Origin: a virus
Reading direction: 5' to 3' (one strand)
Virus record (IMG/VR): IMGVR_UViG_3300031772_004387
Coordinates: 1 to 47,007 of that record
Length of the DNA: 47,007 nt
The translations under genes were made by a program, and so were the position numbers. The notes under the pieces were generated by a model. That model searched no databases, had not been told where the DNA came from, and saw only the letters and a list, made by a program, of their open reading frames with translations. Position 1 is the first letter of the stretch. Each line of letters starts with the position of its first letter. Below are positions 10,201-47,007 of the stretch, piece after piece.

Positions 10201-13200
10201 TCGTCTCAAGCGCATGGCCCTGGGTGATGTGGTTCGTGATGAATGCGTTTTTGATCCGGCTGAAGTAATCGCGACCGGTTTCCGCGGGATAGTCCTTCGT
10301 GTAGGATTGAAATTGCTCCCAAATGGTTTTATTCCGGAAAACATTGTACGCGCGCGCGGCGTCTTTGATGGTGGCCAGGATCTCGGGATCCGCGGCAGTG
10401 ATCATGCTTTCGAGCATGCCGGTCTCTTGGAAGTTATCCCGGAGCATGTCGTAATTTTCGACGTACAGACGGACGAACTCCGCAAACCCTTCCCGGTAGT
10501 TCTTCGCGCTGGCGAACATGAAATGAGGCGACTGAGCGTGGGCTGTGAGTGTTTTGCTCATTCCGTTCTGCCGGAAGAACCCGGGGTTCTTGTCTTCGAG
10601 AAACCAGACCAGGCCGTGGCCGGCTTCGTGGATGTTGGCAATCCATGACTTCGATTTGGTGGACGTGATCATGCCGCGTTTCGCGTGGGACGCCGGAGCG
10701 CCGCGCGATGGCCGCTCCTGCACCATCAGGATTCCCCATTGTTTGTTCAGAAAATCAATGATCGACCGCATGCCCGTGTTTTTGTCCGACTTCATGGACT
10801 CGACCAAGTTCTTGCCCTCCTTGGTCTCTGCGGGGGTTTTGTACATCGGATCTTGCTGATAGGTCACATGGGGCGACTGCGGCTGAACCGTTTTTCTGGC
10901 TTCATCCTCCGGGAATTCTTCAGACTCGATCGCTCGGTCTTCGATTCCGTCAAGGGCTTCGTCTATCTCTGCGAAGTGAACCGGTTGGATCCCGGTTTGG
11001 AATGCGTCGTAGACGCCCAAGACCATCCTATCGTAATATTTCCTGATTTTGGGATTGTCGGCCGTGACTCTCCGGATGAAATCGTTCCGTGATTCGTTCG
11101 TCATCCGGGTAATACCCATGAGGTTCGTGAATCGTTCGAAAGAATTCTTTATTTCGTAATTTATTAAATTATTATTGTCCGAATAAAACTTTTTTACGAT
11201 CTCCGGATTCCCGGCCGGCAGCACTACCGCGGCCATGGCCCGATCGTACGCATCTTCGGTCCTGAACGATTCATCGCTTTCGGCACCTTCGATATATGGT
11301 TCTATTGTTCCACGTGGAACAAATCCCGTGCCAAGGTTATTCGACCGTTGCCAGTTGCTTTCGACGTCTGCCGGATCCGCGATATTGTCCGTGTCTTCTG
11401 AGGCGTCCAGGAACTCTGAACGATTTTCCGGATTCATCTTGCTGACTTCTCCGGCGATAGTCGCTTCCATCTGGCGAAGTTTCGAAACGATGATCCCGAC
11501 TCCCCAGGCATCATTCGGGGTATTTCCGTAGAGTGTGATAATATTCGGTTTGGTTTTGGATTTCAAACGCCACGAACGTCCTATGGCCTGAACGAAATCG
11601 GTCCCGCTGAACGGCGGGGTGATGATGATCATGGATCGCTGCCCGAGACCGTTACTGTCATCCAGGTTGATCCCGGCACCTCCGGATTCCACCGTGCAGA
11701 GTACCACGTCGGCGGCACCCTTCTGGAACCGGTCTATAGCATCCGCGTTCTTTTCCTCGCTGTATCCGTGGATCTCCGCGATGCGTCCGGGCTTGACCAG
11801 TCCTTCCGCGTACAGACGCTCCTTCAAATTCGTGATCGTCCCGGGAGTTTCCACGCCCGTCTTTATTTTTTTATTAATATCGAGCGACGGATTGATGAGC
11901 GTGGCGTATACGATGACCTTCCGGCCGGCCGCCAGTTCGTTCTTTACCATTTCCATGACGTGAGGGACTTTATCGACTTCGCATTGTCGGCGGATCTCCA
12001 TGAGCATCACGCCCAGGAAATTCCCGGGGATCCCGTTCGGAAAAGCCTCCTCGTAGGCCGTCTCGATCTTCCGGATCTTCTCGAACGTCTCCGAAGCCAG
12101 ATGAACGCGCGTGAACGTGATTGGTATTCCCTGCAGGGAGATTTCGCGCTTGATGATCTTTCCGGCCGTGGTTAATCGATCGAACAGCGAATACACACGC
12201 TTCAGGACTTCTTCCTCCCCGACGGCGGAATTGACTGTCCAGGTGGGATTCCCCTCTTTATCCTTTTTCAGGGCGAATCCCAATCGCTTCATCTGATCGT
12301 ACTCGGTCCGGCCCTCGTAGATCCCGATCCGAGCCAGGTAGTTCAGGGACGATAATTTATCGGTGGCAGTGGCGGACGCGAACAAGATCTTCCCGGCTTT
12401 TGCCGCTATCTTCCGGCCCAGGGATCCGCGCTGCGCGCCGGCGTTCTTGATGGTGTGGGATTCATCCATGATGACCAGGGTGTTCGATCCGGTGGCGTCG
12501 TGGACCGCGCCGAGGTTCTCGTACGTCGTGAGTACGATCGTACCGGGCTTCGCCTGTTTCATATCCTTGGTGAAATTCAAGGTGACGCCCATGGCCTTCG
12601 CGTCGTCTTTGAACGATCCGTAGAACTGGCGCGTTTTCCAATCTCCGGAAAGCACCTGCAGGCGTGTGACGATGATGACTGCCATACCCTTCTGCCGGTA
12701 ATGTTCCGCGACGGCCAGTTCTTCCCGGGTCTTTCCTACTCCAGTACCGTCTCCGATCAGGAACCCACCTTCTTTGTCAAGGGCCTCCACTGCGGCAGCG
12801 TAGCCCTCGACTTGGTGATCCATCAGGTTCCGGCTAATGCTCTCAGTAACGACGGATCGATCCGCAGGTCTTGCGGCCGACAACCGCGCTGTGACCAGCG
12901 ATTTGCCATGTTGTAGATCACCCGTTCCTCTATCCCCTCGAGGTTCGGGTCGACGATCGGTAATCTCTCTTTCAGTTTCGGCTGGGACAGGATCCGAGAC
13001 GGGGCTTTGAGGTTTGATTCCCTGGCCAGGGACGCCGGGCTCGGTGACGATTCCGCCGGCCGGGACAACGGACTTTCCACTATCGAATCTAATGGACTGT
13101 TCATTCTTCCTCCTCCATTCCTGCAATTGACGCTTCAGGATATCCGCCTTGTTTTCCGGCGCCGGCGGAGTACCGGCCTGGTCGAAGATGTCGCCCTGGG

Positions 13201-17173: not shown

Positions 17174-18303
17174 TATTTCCCCAGGAGATCCAAGGGATCG
17201 GTGACAGGAGATGCGTAGGCTTTTCTGCTTTTGGCTGCTGCCTCATGCTCCGAGGCGGACTGTTCGTACCGTTCCCGGCGCTCCTTCAGGACCTTCAGGC
17301 GCTTTTTGATCTCATGTTCTCGATCGATTAACTTGTCCTGCCCGGGCCACGGCAAACCATGTTTGGAGCGGATCTCTTTCGTGATGGGGACGATTTCCTT
17401 TTGAAGCTTCGCTTCTTCTTCGATGATCGGCTTCACTTTTGCCCGGACGCCGACCGAGAATTCTTCGAGACTTTTCACCTGTCCTGCGTTGTACTGCGCT
17501 CGGCTTCTTTCCTTGGACGCCCTGATGGCGGTGTCGGGATTACCTTGTTCTCCGAATGCCCGGATGGTTTCGTCACTCGGGACCTGTCCTCCAAGAAGAG
17601 CCCTGTATCCTTCATTGAGAATTTTGTCCGTTTCAGCCATGTACTGATCGGCGTGAGGGGCGTACTGCGGATCGTAAATCGGATGACCTGCTGCGTCGAT
17701 TTCGCCCGTGGGAAGTCCAGCCTGGGAAATCAGGTTGGCGCGGTTCATCTTGGCCGCTCCCAACTGTCCCCAGTATTGCATGTACATTTTTAATTTGTCC
17801 GCTTTTTCCTGATCGTTCTTAGCATTGAGAACGTCCTGATGATGCTGGTAAAGCGGTTGGATTTCCTTCTGCCACTGATCCATGGTGATTCTTTTCGTCC
17901 CCGGGGGCATGAAAGGTTCCACGCCCGGGTACTGCTTTCCGAGCGCCGAAACATCCAGACCGAGATCGTTCAACCCTCCGGTCATGGCGAAATTCAAAGC
18001 CTCGGGATCCTTGGCAAGTTCCTGGCTTTTCTGATCGGCAAGTTTCAGGGCTTCGCTGGTTCCGATTGATCTCAAATTCTTTATATAATCAAGACTTACC
18101 TGAGATGTCACGTCCCTGGCGTGTTTCTTCTTCTCCTCGCCAGACCTGAAGTCCCGTTCCTTCTGATACTCGCCCTGCTGGAATTCACGGGTCCTCTGCG
18201 TCTCCCTGGCCTTGGCGCTTTCTCCGGCGATGAAATCGAGGGTATTGCCGATCATCCCGATGGCTTCATCGTGGGAATGAGTGAACACGTTGTCGTTGGG
18301 CAT
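17173..18303 (-). CDS. Probable internal virion protein
   Basis: The 376-residue product is highly charged and mostly helical, with coiled-coil character at about residues 25-75 (rich in Arg, Glu, Gln) and again at 300-365 (KEIRSKH, ERRERYEQSASEHEAAAK). No enzyme motif is seen. It is coupled by 1-bp TAATG overlaps to a smaller protein upstream and the giant protein downstream. Three consecutive genes of rising size before the fibres is the arrangement of podovirus ejection proteins (compare T7 gp14-15-16). Inference rests on position and composition. Confidence 0.7.
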   Translation of the reverse strand: MPNDNVFTHSHDEAIGMIGNTLDFIAGESAKARETQRTREFQQGEYQKERDFRSGEEKKKHARDVTSQVSLDYIKNLRSIGTSEALKLADQKSQELAKDPEALNFAMTGGLNDLGLDVSALGKQYPGVEPFMPPGTKRITMDQWQKEIQPLYQHHQDVLNAKNDQEKADKLKMYMQYWGQLGAAKMNRANLISQAGLPTGEIDAAGHPIYDPQYAPHADQYMAETDKILNEGYRALLGGQVPSDETIRAFGEQGNPDTAIRASKERSRAQYNAGQVKSLEEFSVGVRAKVKPIIEEEAKLQKEIVPITKEIRSKHGLPWPGQDKLIDREHEIKKRLKVLKERRERYEQSASEHEAAAKSRKAYASPVTDPLDLLGK

Positions 18304-18914
18304 TATAATTCACCTCCCCAGTCAACATTCTTTCCTGTCGTATCGCCGCCCGGATTGCCGGAAGGACCGATCTGTTTCTTGTTCTGCATATCGTATCGCC
18401 AGAGCATGAGCGCCTTGCTCAGCACTCCCAGGGGCGCCTGGGTCATGCTGCCGGTCCAGGCGGCCTTATTCTCGTCGAACTGATTGCTCGCGTTGGCCAC
18501 GGCACCCTGGTACTTCTGCAATTCTCCCATGTAATCCATCTTGGATTGACGCTGAGTGGCAAACAATCCCTGGTCCGCTTCAGTCGACGCCTTGCCGATC
18601 CCGTACGACGATCCGGCCAGAGATGAAAGCACCTGTCCCGCGTTCAGACCTGAAGCCGCGCCGGCCTGTTTGATGGCCGCGATATTCCCAAGGTTCTCCG
18701 CGCGCGCGCCTGTGAGCATCCGGTTCCGTTCGCCGGCCAGATCGCCCTCGTCGAGTACGATGTCCTTCTCGAACTGCCGCGGATCCAGCATCCCCACCAT
18801 GGGCCGCTTGGGTTTGTTAAGTAGACCCACCAGACTGCTCACCCCGGAGGCGATCGATCCGATTCCGAAAGGGCTCCCGATGAAATCGAGAATACCGGAT
18901 TTTTGTTCAGGCAT
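18303..18914 (-). CDS. Probable internal virion protein, T7 gp14-like position
   Basis: The 203-residue product starts MPEQKSGILDFIGSPFGIGS and has a hydrophobic Gly/Ser-rich N-terminus (about 8-35), followed by Ala/Gly/Gln-rich helix (GAASGLNAGQVLSSLAGSS, about 85-110). This composition is typical of the smallest podovirus ejection protein. The frame is open to 19055, but ATG 18914 has a strong AAGGAG 6 nt upstream, and the extension would run through the CRISPR-repeat-like element at 18969-18928. The stop overlaps the next start (TAATG). Confidence 0.75.
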   Translation of the reverse strand: MPEQKSGILDFIGSPFGIGSIASGVSSLVGLLNKPKRPMVGMLDPRQFEKDIVLDEGDLAGERNRMLTGARAENLGNIAAIKQAGAASGLNAGQVLSSLAGSSYGIGKASTEADQGLFATQRQSKMDYMGELQKYQGAVANASNQFDENKAAWTGSMTQAPLGVLSKALMLWRYDMQNKKQIGPSGNPGGDTTGKNVDWGGEL

Positions 18915-18927
18915 GACGTTCTCCTTA

Positions 18928-18969
18928 GTTTCAATCCACGGCGGGGAGGCAGAAGATCCCTCCCCGCCG
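18928..18969 (-). ncRNA. Solitary type I-C CRISPR-repeat-like element (hairpin plus handle), copy 2
   Basis: Minus strand: CGGCGGGGAGG (18969-18959), a 9-nt loop, the exact complement CCTCCCCGCCG (18949-18939), then TGGATTGAAAC (18938-18928). The 11-bp stem abuts the 11-nt sequence that ends type I-C CRISPR repeats and forms the 5' handle of their crRNAs. The 16-mer CGTGGATTGAAACTAA is shared exactly with the element at 41585-41555. The stem is longer than in ordinary I-C repeats. The ribosome site AAGGAG of the next gene begins 2 nt after the handle. There is no second repeat, so it is not an array. Expression as a separate RNA is inferred. Confidence 0.55.
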
Positions 18970-18991: not shown

Positions 18992-19279
18992 TTAACTCGG
19001 GCCGCCGGCGACCTTCACCAGTTTGAATATCCCGTTCGCGGAAAGGCACACGCACGCGACGATGATCAAATAACCGATCAGACCGTCGGACGCCAGGTGA
19101 GAAAAACTGGCGATGAACGAAATGACGACCGAAATGACGACGCTGATCAAGGGCGCCACCGTTACCTTGACAAACGCCTCGATCGTCTTTTTGATCGTCT
19201 GTGTCACGGTCACCACTACGGCCGCCAGAAGAGCGATGATGCCCGTGAATTCCGGAGACAACCAGGTTGTTGGAAACAT
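18992..19279 (-). CDS. Small membrane protein, holin-like
   Basis: The 95-residue product has three hydrophobic segments: about residues 12-32 (GIIALLAAVVVTVTQ), 40-60 (VAPLISVVISVVISFIAS) and 68-86 (GYLIIVACVCLSANGIF), with short charged ends. This fits a class I-type holin that would form lesions in the inner membrane at lysis. The lysin gene is, however, 6 kb away and has its own membrane-protein neighbour. A strong AAGGAGG site lies before ATG 19279. An alternative is a membrane-anchoring protein of the ejection complex encoded next. Confidence 0.6.
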   Translation of the reverse strand: MFPTTWLSPEFTGIIALLAAVVVTVTQTIKKTIEAFVKVTVAPLISVVISVVISFIASFSHLASDGLIGYLIIVACVCLSANGIFKLVKVAGGPS

Positions 19280-36580: not shown

Positions 36581-36613
36581 AAAGTCCCCAAAAAAAGAGA
36601 AAGGAGCATGGAG

Positions 36614-37258
36614 ATGTTAATATTTTTGAAAGACGAAAACGAGGAATGGGAACGCCATGAGGGAAGTTTGACCGATTTAAAATCCGCACTCGACAAGCGA
36701 AATATCAGCATCGGCGACAGGGCCAGCATCGGCGACTGGGCCAGCATCGGCGACTGGGCCAGCATCGGCGACTGGGCCCGCATCGGCGCAGGGGCCCGCA
36801 TCGGCGCAGGGGCCCGCATCGGCGACTGGGCCAGCATCGGCGACTGGGCCCGCATCGGCGCAGGGGCCCGCATCGGCGACTGGGCCCGCATCGGCGACTG
36901 GGCCCGCATCGGCGCAGGGGCCCGCATCGGCGCAGGGGCCAGCATCGGCGCAGGGGCCCGCATCGAAAAAACATACGATGCCCTTGTTGTGGGACCAATT
37001 GGATCGCGTAACGCATACACCACGTTTTTCCGCTCAAAAGAAGGAATCGCCGTAAATTGTGGCTGCTGGGCTGGGATGATTGCGGAATTCCGTCAGCGTG
37101 TCACTGATACCCACAAGGGCAATGCACACGAAATAGTCTATCTTGCCGCATGCGACTACGCAGAGGCCGTTATCCTCAACGCCAAGGTAACAATCGCCGC
37201 ATTCGAGCCGCGCACGCCGAGAAAGCCGGACGTGCCCGAGAATGACGGCGGAATCTGA
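36614..37258 (+). CDS. Hexapeptide-repeat (left-handed beta-helix-like) early protein
   Basis: The 214-residue product has an alpha/beta N-terminus (1-30), 14 perfect-length hexapeptides IG(D/A)(W/G)A(S/R) at residues 33-116, and a C-terminal alpha/beta domain with cysteines (VNCGCWAGMIAEF, AACDYAEAVI) ending in the tail shared with the preceding gene. I-x-x-x-A-x hexapeptides form the left-handed beta helix of acyltransferase-type proteins, here about 4-5 turns. No catalytic histidine is seen within the repeats, so it may be a structural scaffold or a DNA-mimic-like rod. AAGGAG 7 nt upstream favours ATG 36614 over ATG 36608. Confidence 0.75.
   Translation: MLIFLKDENEEWERHEGSLTDLKSALDKRNISIGDRASIGDWASIGDWASIGDWARIGAGARIGAGARIGDWASIGDWARIGAGARIGDWARIGDWARIGAGARIGAGASIGAGARIEKTYDALVVGPIGSRNAYTTFFRSKEGIAVNCGCWAGMIAEFRQRVTDTHKGNAHEIVYLAACDYAEAVILNAKVTIAAFEPRTPRKPDVPENDGGI
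36710..36961 (+). repeat. Fourteen tandem 18-bp repeats in a coding region
   Basis: Exactly 14 units of 18 bp, built from ATCGGCGACTGGGCC(A/C)GC and ATCGGCGCAGGGGCCCGC variants in mixed order. The units are nearly identical at the DNA level, not just in protein, so the array expanded recently or is kept homogeneous by recombination. All changes in unit number keep the frame. Confidence 0.95.
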
Positions 37259-40869: not shown

Positions 40870-41105
40870 GCGATCCTCCTGTGCTTGTAAAATTTTCTGA
40901 TGATTCGAAACGCGCACCAGGCAACCAGCCAATGAGCTTCCATGGCGAATGTCTCTCCGTGGTAAAAGATGTTCGTCCATTCGCCATCGGAAAAGAATCG
41001 AGTTTGTACGGCCCGAATGTCCGGCGATAACAGAAATCCAACGGTCGGAGTAGGATCGTATTTTATCGACCGGATCGCCCGGTACGCACGCGAAAGACAG
41101 TTCAA
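40866..41105 (-). CDS. Small protein with TTG start, unknown
   Basis: The 79-residue product (MNCLSRAYRAIRSIKYDPTPTV...) is basic with a Trp/Phe-rich middle (NIFYHGETFAMEAHWLVAWCAF) and a basic tail. The start is TTG 41105 overlapping the stop before it (TTGA), with GGAAGGA upstream. No signal peptide. Function unknown. Confidence 0.6.
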   Translation of the reverse strand: MNCLSRAYRAIRSIKYDPTPTVGFLLSPDIRAVQTRFFSDGEWTNIFYHGETFAMEAHWLVAWCAFRIIRKFYKHRRIA

Positions 41106-41536
41106 AACGGTCCTTCCACGTCCGAAACGGTCTTATCTCCGGGTTCCGGCGCGCTTACGGAAGGACCGCCCTCGGTGGGTGTTTCTTTTTCCTGCATATC
41201 GAGCTCGGATTGCAACTCGCGCGCGGTCATATCGCGGCGCTCGATGATTTCGAATGTGTCACGACGCTTGGTTAATACAACCCCCGACACATAATCCGGA
41301 ATGATATCCACGTCTATCATCTTGTGCATCTTCCCGGAAGTGATCCGCTGGGTGGCCGTATCGATCGTCGCTTCCTCTCGGGCCAGTTGGGCTTTCGCTT
41401 GGGTGGCCATGGCCTTGAGTTCGTTTTCGAGTTCCGTCTGCCGGTTGATCGCCTGGGATAGAACGTATGCCTCGTGAAGAATTTCCTCCTGCGTCATCAC
41501 GCATTCGAGCAACCGTTTCTCCGTCGTCGTTTTCAT
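41102..41536 (-). CDS. Helical early protein preceded by a CRISPR-repeat-like element
   Basis: The 144-residue product is mainly coiled coil at residues 15-65 (EEILHEAYVLSQAINRQTELE, then KAMATQAKAQLAREEATID), with a charged middle (VDIIPDYVSGVVLTKRRD) and a disordered acidic tail. It resembles host-nuclease inhibitor-type or recombination-accessory proteins only in shape. Ribosome site GGAGGAA precedes ATG 41536. The type I-C-like hairpin element ends 18 bp upstream of the start. Confidence 0.65.
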   Translation of the reverse strand: MKTTTEKRLLECVMTQEEILHEAYVLSQAINRQTELENELKAMATQAKAQLAREEATIDTATQRITSGKMHKMIDVDIIPDYVSGVVLTKRRDTFEIIERRDMTARELQSELDMQEKETPTEGGPSVSAPEPGDKTVSDVEGPF

Positions 41537-41554
41537 GCTTCCTCCGTCTGGTTA

Positions 41555-41585
41555 GTTTCAATCCACGCGCCGCATGGGGCGCGAC
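41555..41585 (-). ncRNA. Solitary type I-C CRISPR-repeat-like element, copy 1
   Basis: Minus strand: GT, stem CGCGCC (41583-41578), loop CCATGC, stem GGCGCG (41571-41566), then TGGATTGAAAC (41565-41555): 31 nt in all. Length, the GTCGC opening, the hairpin and the 11-nt ending are those of type I-C CRISPR repeats, whose Cas5 cuts at the base of the hairpin and leaves TGGATTGAAAC as crRNA handle. No second repeat or cas gene is present, so it is solitary. It lies between two genes of the early unit. Expression and Cas binding are inferred. Confidence 0.7.
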
Positions 41586-41596
41586 CACTAATGCCA

Positions 41597-42421
41597 TTAT
41601 TTTTGAATAAGACCAACGCCCATGACCTTGGCGGGCGGCGTCGTATCGACCGGGATCCCCTCGTAGGAAACGATCGTCTTTCGAGCCATGCCGTTTGTCA
41701 TGTAAATTTTATAAACAAACGGTCCGTTCACGCTCACGTCGAAAACGAATTCATTCGGGTAGACCGTCGTGCTGCCGCGGGTGCCCTTGGTCTGAAATTG
41801 CGTCTGATACATGGACCCGATCGAGACAGTTATTTTACTGTTGCCGTACGCTCCGCATCCATAGACTACGCATTTGATTTGTCCTTTTTTCATGGGAATA
41901 ATCGTGCTCACCGATCCGGAATCGGCATACAGACCGGGCCCGAACAGAGCTGTAAGATTTAAGAATTTTGTGAATGGATCAATCCGGTTTTCCGTGTAAA
42001 TCCATTTCGGCTGACGGAAAGTTTCGTCCGTAAAGGGCAAGGCATCCTGCGCCGGAGGCTCAATCGGGGGAGGGATGACGGCCGCGGGTCTGAACGCCAC
42101 TTTCACGGTGTCGCTCGGGATCCCGAGATTACCCGCTGAATCCTTGGCCGCAACGCAAAGCAGCGAGGAATCCGCCAGAACGTCTTGCGTAAAAATATAG
42201 GTCGTGTCCGAGGTGCCGAATGTCACCCAGCCCAATCCAGGGTTGATGTAGGTGAATTTGTAGATCCAGTACTCGATCTTCGGTTCATTGATCTTTTGCC
42301 AGATCAGGCCTACCCGATTGACGTCCTTCGAGAAAACATAGGTCCGCTTGAAAGCGTACTGCGCGTTAATCGTAACGAACGCGAACGCCATGCTTGCGAG
42401 TAAAACCATCGTCTTTTTCAT
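41597..42421 (-). CDS. Exported protein with fibronectin III-like domain
   Basis: The 274-residue product begins MKKTMVLLASMAFAFVTINA, a Sec signal peptide. Residues 22-115 form a fibronectin III-like sandwich (VGLIWQKINEPKIEYWIYKF, DSLLCVAAKDSAGNLG-like segment, DTVKVAF), a Pro-rich linker follows, and residues 145-260 form a second beta domain. AAGGAG 6 nt before ATG 42421 fixes the start; the frame to 42535 is a spurious extension. It overlaps the previous gene by 56 bp. An exported adhesion-type protein in an early unit is unusual; a surface-masking role is a guess. Confidence 0.75.
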   Translation of the reverse strand: MKKTMVLLASMAFAFVTINAQYAFKRTYVFSKDVNRVGLIWQKINEPKIEYWIYKFTYINPGLGWVTFGTSDTTYIFTQDVLADSSLLCVAAKDSAGNLGIPSDTVKVAFRPAAVIPPPIEPPAQDALPFTDETFRQPKWIYTENRIDPFTKFLNLTALFGPGLYADSGSVSTIIPMKKGQIKCVVYGCGAYGNSKITVSIGSMYQTQFQTKGTRGSTTVYPNEFVFDVSVNGPFVYKIYMTNGMARKTIVSYEGIPVDTTPPAKVMGVGLIQK

Positions 42422-42671
42422 TTCCTTGCTCCTTCCAAAAGTGACAGGCCGGTGATTTGAGACGGATATCAGTCGCCGGCCCACTGCTCTGATATCCTTC
42501 CTTGCATTTGTAATATAGATTTGCGTACTGAACATAGATCCTGTTTCCGCACGTCCCGCACGTCTCGCCCTCGGGACCGGTCCCGGGATGCGCCGCGTAT
42601 CCGGTGACGCGGTGCTTCGCCTTGACGGACGGATCGGGCATGACGTCGAAGATTTCAGTCTGATCCGTCAT
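42366..42671 (-). CDS. Small zinc-ribbon phage protein
   Basis: The 101-residue product contains GYAAHPGTGPEGETCGTCGN (residues 23-42), then YYKCKEG, GPATDIRLKSPACHFW: four or five cysteines spaced like a treble zinc ribbon. The G-P-E-G-E-T-C-G-x-C and S-P-A-C-x-x-W signatures occur in many phage proteins of unknown function. It overlaps the neighbours (ATGA at the start). Its end overlaps the next gene by 56 bp. Confidence 0.75.
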   Translation of the reverse strand: MTDQTEIFDVMPDPSVKAKHRVTGYAAHPGTGPEGETCGTCGNRIYVQYANLYYKCKEGYQSSGPATDIRLKSPACHFWKEQGNEKDDGFTRKHGVRVRYD

Positions 42672-46573: not shown

Positions 46574-47007
46574 TTAAACGAATTCAGCGCCCTCTTTTTT
46601 GTGCCACTGATCGACTTCTTCGTCGTCCTCGCTTTTATCGCCGTAATCCCCGCGGGGTTCGTAGTAAATATTCGGATCCGGGGGGATGTACTCGAATGGC
46701 ATGACCGCGGCGTACCGGATGACGTCCATGGGATCCTTGCCGATCTCCAAAACCTTCACGGAAAGGTCTTTTTTCTCCTGGGCCTTCCCGACGATCGTAT
46801 CGTATTTGTAGTTTTTGAAAGACCAGATGACGTTTTTGCAGCAGGGATCGATCAGGAATGGGAATTCCTCCTGGGAGATGCCCTCCGCCGGAAGTTTCAG
46901 TAGGGATTTGACGAATTTATGACCGTCGTACAGATCGTCGTTGGATGACGTGATGAACGACCGAGGCCGATCGAGTAGGGCGAATTCGTTCTCGTACACG
47001 TCCTTGG
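46574..47007 (-). CDS. terL: Terminase large subunit, C-terminal part (same gene as at 1-1373)
   Basis: The frame runs without stop to the right edge and matches the left-end gene through the 126-bp repeat. It contains the end of the nuclease half, with GKDPMDVIRYAAVMPF near the C-terminus supplying the last conserved acidic residue, and an acidic tail (SEDDEEVDQWHKKEGAEFV). The stop is TAA at 46576-46574. The two entries are halves of one 559-residue protein. Confidence 0.9.
   Translation of the reverse strand, partial: KDVYENEFALLDRPRSFITSSNDDLYDGHKFVKSLLKLPAEGISQEEFPFLIDPCCKNVIWSFKNYKYDTIVGKAQEKKDLSVKVLEIGKDPMDVIRYAAVMPFEYIPPDPNIYYEPRGDYGDKSEDDEEVDQWHKKEGAEFV
46882..47007. repeat. Direct terminal repeat, right copy (circle overlap)
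   Basis: Exact copy of bases 2-127. See the left copy. It lies inside the large terminase gene and joins the ends without disturbing its frame. Confidence 0.9.

Follow-up and report, generated by a model that had tools for sequence, protein, structure and literature searches.

A solitary type I-C CRISPR repeat and another hairpin sharing its handle, candidate RNA decoys for Cas5d in a phage genome

Solitary CRISPR repeats carried by phages are a recently described class of RNA decoys. In the main account of SRUFinder, a solitary repeat unit (SRU) is a match over at least 90% of the length at 41.1 bits or more, placed between genes and without neighbouring repeats (PMC10651486). Such repeats, RacrIF1 and RacrIC1 among them, inhibited CRISPR experimentally in that account. 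RacrIF1, a type I-F mimic from a Thiocystis prophage, binds the processing enzyme and nucleates Cas7 into incomplete complexes, thereby titrating both, while RacrIC1, from a Bifidobacterium pseudocatenulatum prophage, lies 11 nt downstream of the AcrIC5 gene on a bicistronic RNA and restores infection (PMC10651486). In type I-C systems, repeats are processed by Cas5d, which recognizes a hairpin together with the single strand 3′ of it, cleaves at the base of the hairpin to leave an 11-nt 5′ handle and remains on the hairpin after the cut; the I-C Cascade is described as containing two Cas5d subunits (reviewed in PMC5965380, PMC3890593).

Here we describe a candidate of this class in a phage genome. 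The window, meaning the entire 47,007-nt stretch analysed, is one virus record (IMGVR_UViG_3300031772_004387). An identical direct repeat of 126 nt occupies both of its ends (2-127 and 46882-47007), from which we infer that the record, at about 47 kb, probably covers the complete genome, either through circular assembly or with terminal redundancy. One open reading frame on the strand opposite to most genes (36608-37258, plus) contains about 14 tandem 18-nt units encoding hexapeptide repeats and matches PHROGs whose function is not known.

Element 1 is a 31-nt sequence on the minus strand (41585-41555) that reads GTCGCGCCCCATGCGGCGCGTGGATTGAAAC and consists of GT, a hairpin and an 11-nt handle. 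Folded alone (MFE -11.3 kcal/mol), it forms the hairpin CGCGCC-CCATGC-GGCGCG (41566-41583, minus), with a 6-bp stem and a 6-nt loop, followed by the 11 unpaired nucleotides of the handle TGGATTGAAAC (41555-41565, minus), immediately 5′ of which Cas5d is predicted to cut given its described activity (PMC5965380, PMC3890593). Direct inspection and folding thus bear out the preliminary description of this site in sequence, coordinates and stem-handle layout. Element 1 takes up most of a 60-nt gap (41537-41596) between two minus-strand reading frames in a neighbourhood of replication and recombination genes. Upstream, a 312-aa reading frame (41597-42535, minus), for which no family was found and which is not a known Acr, stops 11 nt ahead of the element; an internal start in this frame would give a signal-peptide-like N terminus (MKKTMVLLASMAFAFVTINAQ), unusual amid replication genes. 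Downstream, a 144-aa reading frame (41102-41536, minus), likewise without a family found, starts 18 nt past the handle and is preceded by the Shine-Dalgarno sequence GGAGG (41541-41545, minus).

We rejected overlapping coding as an account of element 1. A 112-aa alternative frame runs over it with codon-position GC of 0.67/0.57/0.40, whereas real genes peak at the third position; the codon-position GC of the 144-aa frame fits real genes. RNA anti-CRISPRs often lie next to acr genes; searches of the neighbours of element 1 against PHROGs and Pfam returned no Acr family, and no promoter was predicted beside it.

Although the exact 31-mer had no match in the bacterial genome collection, versions of it with up to 3 extra bases at one place occurred in 49 stretches, whose array consensus was almost always GTCGCGCCCCATGCGGGCGCGTGGATTGAAAC, on more than 30 array contigs with arrays of up to 88 repeats. 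Element 1 reproduces 31 of the 32 nt of this repeat and, at one nucleotide under the usual I-C length, lacks a single G, a loss that spares a perfect 6-bp helix and leaves the handle unaltered. Arrays with GTCGCGCCCCATGCGGGCGCGTGGATTGAAAC span Omnitrophota, Bacteroidetes, Spirochaetota, Chitinispirillaceae, Planctomycetes, Syntrophales, Ignavibacteria, Chlorobium, Pelotomaculum and others. Cas5d (TIGR01876) scored above cut-off in 16 of 24 genomes with GTCGCGCCCCATGCGGGCGCGTGGATTGAAAC-type arrays, against 1 of 14 controls.

Element 1 was also the top hit in the window of a covariance model built, with the window excluded, from 13 repeats, all from real arrays or the B. halodurans repeat of the literature (41.0 bits and E=1.1e-10 in cmsearch), a model that leans on the handle because its array repeats were mostly retrieved by patterns holding it. 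Aligned by blastn with the 32-nt array repeat, a comparison that spans the whole element, it scored 48.1-50.9 bits over 32 of 32 columns with 1 gap; the highest score in 300 Markov-simulated windows was 30.2 bits, and shuffled sequences gave 0 matches at up to 3 mismatches. For this element, a chance resemblance between an ordinary hairpin and a repeat is refuted by these values, and the earlier proposal of a solitary type I-C repeat beyond chance expectation is upheld.

Element 1 has the features of an SRU in its intergenic position, in its score above 41.1 bits over full length, obtained with one array repeat as query rather than the SRUFinder collection, and in its isolation, as no full or partial repeat lies within about 100 bp. 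There was no GGATTGAA within 110 nt, and alignments of the flanks were no better than those of shuffles. From type I-C repeats it has the GTCGC start, the hairpin, the TGGATTGAAAC end and a repeat that occurs in arrays of Cas5d-bearing genomes. Rfam gave no match at gathering score, the best sub-threshold hits for this and the second element described below being CRISPR-DR9 and DR10, and no named phage carried a full-length match to element 1. Sequence could hardly give firmer grounds for calling it a solitary repeat unit of type I-C.

Several described systems resemble this locus in part. Like the IMG/VR3 SRUs of the main SRUFinder account, element 1 is an intergenic, full-length match above 41.1 bits without neighbours. 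It shares with RacrIC1, as described there, a solitary I-C mimic placed 11 nt past an upstream reading frame, on a polycistronic RNA that is predicted in the case of element 1; RacrIC1, however, follows acrIC5 and was tested, whereas element 1 is a candidate whose upstream frame is no known Acr. Element 1 further differs from RacrIC1 in having a ribosome-binding site and gene directly downstream and a second element in the same genome (PMC10651486, main account). RacrIF1 is likewise a repeat mimic, but type I-F uses Cas6f with a stem-specific contact, whereas in type I-C the handle is bound by Cas5d, the processing enzyme itself. Phage-borne repeats of host type also occur as viral CRISPR mini-arrays; these need at least two repeats around a spacer, and none occurs in the window.

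Since repeats of the same class, including RacrIC1, inhibit CRISPR experimentally, an RNA anti-CRISPR is the best-supported function. A decoy function of element 1 is likely, and we favour, with moderate confidence, the reading in which element 1 is an RNA decoy within phage mRNA (a candidate RacrIC) and element 2 probably acts in the same way. Element 1 would be transcribed within a polycistronic mRNA that the phage itself makes from its minus strand. If the host has a type I-C system, Cas5d would bind the hairpin and 3′ handle and cut in between, 5′ of UGGAUUGAAAC; it would be kept on the upstream hairpin product, Cas7 could polymerize on the RNA, and another Cas5d may occupy the handle, with which the downstream mRNA would now begin. 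As neither cut product is a full crRNA, Cas5d and Cas7 would end in dead-end complexes and interference would weaken. Among candidates for this decoy class, element 1 is strong, of type I-C and otherwise unlinked.

The preliminary description held that there was no second repeat, which stands for the flanks of element 1 but not for the window at large, where a second hairpin with an identical CGTGGATTGAAACTAA lies at 18969-18928 on the minus strand. Neither this element nor the proximity of both elements to ribosome-binding sites had been recorded in that description. Found by repeat scan, motif scan and folding, element 2 (18928-18969, minus) joins an 11-bp hairpin, CGGCGGGGAGG-GATCTTCTG-CCTCCCCGCCG, to the handle TGGATTGAAAC, which at 18938-18928 is the only other exact copy in the window. 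The hairpin is perfect and directly abuts the handle (MFE -25.8, z -4.2); the 16 nt of CGTGGATTGAAACTAA are common to both elements and their stems are unrelated. Behind the handle comes TAAGGAG and then ATG, that is, the Shine-Dalgarno sequence AGGAG (18921-18925, minus) of a 203-aa reading frame in the structural block (18303-18914, minus), which starts 13 nt past the handle. A holin-like frame (18992-19279, minus; PHROG 1299) lies upstream, and the surroundings are structural and lysis genes. Within this late gene block, element 2 would probably act as proposed for element 1, later in infection.

Element 2 departs from a type I-C repeat in that, with handle and hairpin present, it lacks the GTCGC start. 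With 15.4 bits and E=0.022 it ranked second among the covariance-model hits in the window, the third scoring 12.1, and its blast match of 13 nt and 26 bits falls short of an SRU. A window of such size is expected to contain 0.022 handles, and hairpins of at least 6 bp end at 0.29% of positions. Because the joint expectation for a handle directly on a hairpin is about 6e-5 per window (0.022 x 0.0029), the pairing is improbable by chance, an estimate made post hoc and with hairpins more frequent between genes. None of 44 chance GCCGTGGATTGAAAC sites in viral contigs carried a hairpin of at least 6 bp, and on these control sites we rejected random CGTGGATTGAAAC-type sites as its source. In aggregate, statistical support for element 2 is moderate.

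These values also bear on whether both elements are ordinary intergenic hairpins, serving as terminators or in RNA processing or translation, whose likeness to a repeat is accidental. Where element 2 is taken by itself, this has something in its favour, in that at least 10 of the 300 simulated windows reached its 26-bit score and, in the relative G007, the corresponding location has an unrelated hairpin that lacks the handle. Given the non-I-C stem, the E value of 0.022 and this handle-less counterpart, its hairpin may serve another role. As an account of both elements, chance resemblance is very improbable, contradicted by the scores of element 1 and by the lack of a T-run behind either hairpin. 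Neither was called as a terminator, and for want of the T-run we rejected that assignment for both.

A differing stem does not by itself exclude recognition by Cas5d, since real arrays in L303, L364 and L121/L122 pair the same handle with other stems. In L303 (at 290) and L364, array-like repeats join the handle TGGATTGAAAC to stems that look nothing like it (for example CTCTCCGCC...GGCGGAGAG). L121 and L122 (contigs of 126 and 188 kb) have in common a phage-borne array in which the I-C handle follows a distinct stem, GTCGCATCCTCTAACAAAGGATGCGTGGATTGAAAC, and several spacers of the two arrays are the same.

We also weighed an origin without RNA function, in which element 1 is what remains of a host array that was once captured, or else marks a landing site where the phage integrates into arrays or spacers are acquired. 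The identity of its repeat with those of real arrays suits such an origin, and integration into arrays is listed in the literature as an earlier suggestion. Yet neither side of the element shows a spacer, a partial repeat or an array leader; hairpin and handle are intact within the tight 60-nt gap, and no integrase was found among the window's reading frames scanned. Array capture would also not be expected to place the handle a second time, on a hairpin of unrelated sequence. We consider this origin quite unlikely.

Relatives and hosts of the phage were sought by several routes. The capsid led to eight distant contigs (42-56% identical) that have most structural genes in common at low identity. 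The preliminary description had looked for the stem-handle layout to be conserved in related phages; neither element was present in any of these eight distant relatives, and homologues of the 203-aa frame in relatives had no handle. The exonuclease led to two distant loci, and the 144-aa and 333-aa neighbour proteins retrieved no close relatives. A capsid profile run against about 860 genomes from three phyla that use the repeat gave no convincing hit (the best, at E=2e-5, spanned part of the model), and spacers from 66 loci matched the window only over chance lengths of 14-19 nt.

The placement of both elements recurs elsewhere. A pattern scan of viral contigs returned at least about 100 solitary units with hairpin and handle among the matches listed. 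Of 86 non-redundant solitary units among those matches, 16 sit 5-35 nt ahead of a same-strand start with a Shine-Dalgarno sequence, compared with 4 of the 86 placed at the same distance in the opposite orientation and with 4.8% of random positions (binomial p=3e-6; sense versus antisense p=0.004), on gene calls made by simple, uncurated ORF rules. A looser window of 60 nt gave a weaker contrast. Statistical support for the leader placement of such units is good in this sample.

Several records contain more than one dispersed unit, with identical stems in L009/L012 and L061 and different stems in L007, L019 and L110. Pairs with one handle on different stems, and the enrichment at start codons, are not described for SRUs in the main account of SRUFinder (PMC10651486). 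Element 2 and the leader placement are what is new here: such units precede phage start codons more often than expected, sometimes several in one phage, with different stems and one handle.

This pattern raises the prospect that the elements are CRISPR-responsive mRNA leaders, in which the Cas5d cut, or Cas5d and Cas7 on the handle, alters translation or stability of the downstream message, with or without a decoy effect. The phage would thereby sense the host's crRNA-processing enzyme, or exploit it as a switch or as a nuclease that processes mRNA. Since a Cas complex on the handle would adjoin the ribosome-binding site, the downstream gene may be affected, both elements ending 13-18 nt ahead of a start with the Shine-Dalgarno sequence in between. 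The survey enrichment points the same way, as do the late genes behind leader units (tail assembly chaperone, tail lysin, holin and head decoration protein). A recombination gene also lies behind such a leader. A scan free of stem bias, fixing only handle, Shine-Dalgarno sequence and ATG, added further leader units, some with non-canonical stems (L285, L292), and L019 has two leader units with one handle and different stems. Against this, 70 of the 86 listed solitary units lie outside such leaders, the downstream genes have no common function, and a leader is also a simple route to transcribing a decoy. On balance, we hold leader regulation to be rather unlikely relative to the decoy reading. 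A combined form, in which phages keep the handle read by Cas5d and vary the stem in their own leaders, so that Cas5d would be lost to the decoy and gene expression changed as well, is unlikely. The pattern allows a direct test of the minimal repeat that Cas5d needs and of the response of phage genes to the host CRISPR machinery.

Individual loci of the survey showed further arrangements. In L007, two solitary units occur in one record (1310-1420 and 13100-13190); one is followed by a strong terminator, a small-RNA layout, and the other comes directly after a -10-like TGATAAAAT, ahead of a tail assembly chaperone gene. L012 and L009, which belong to one 50-kb record, carry a single identical solitary repeat in three dispersed copies. 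AAAC runs (GAAACaaacaaacaaac) follow the solitary units of L009, L012, L057, L109 and others, and the bases immediately past the handle are A-rich throughout the surveyed set.
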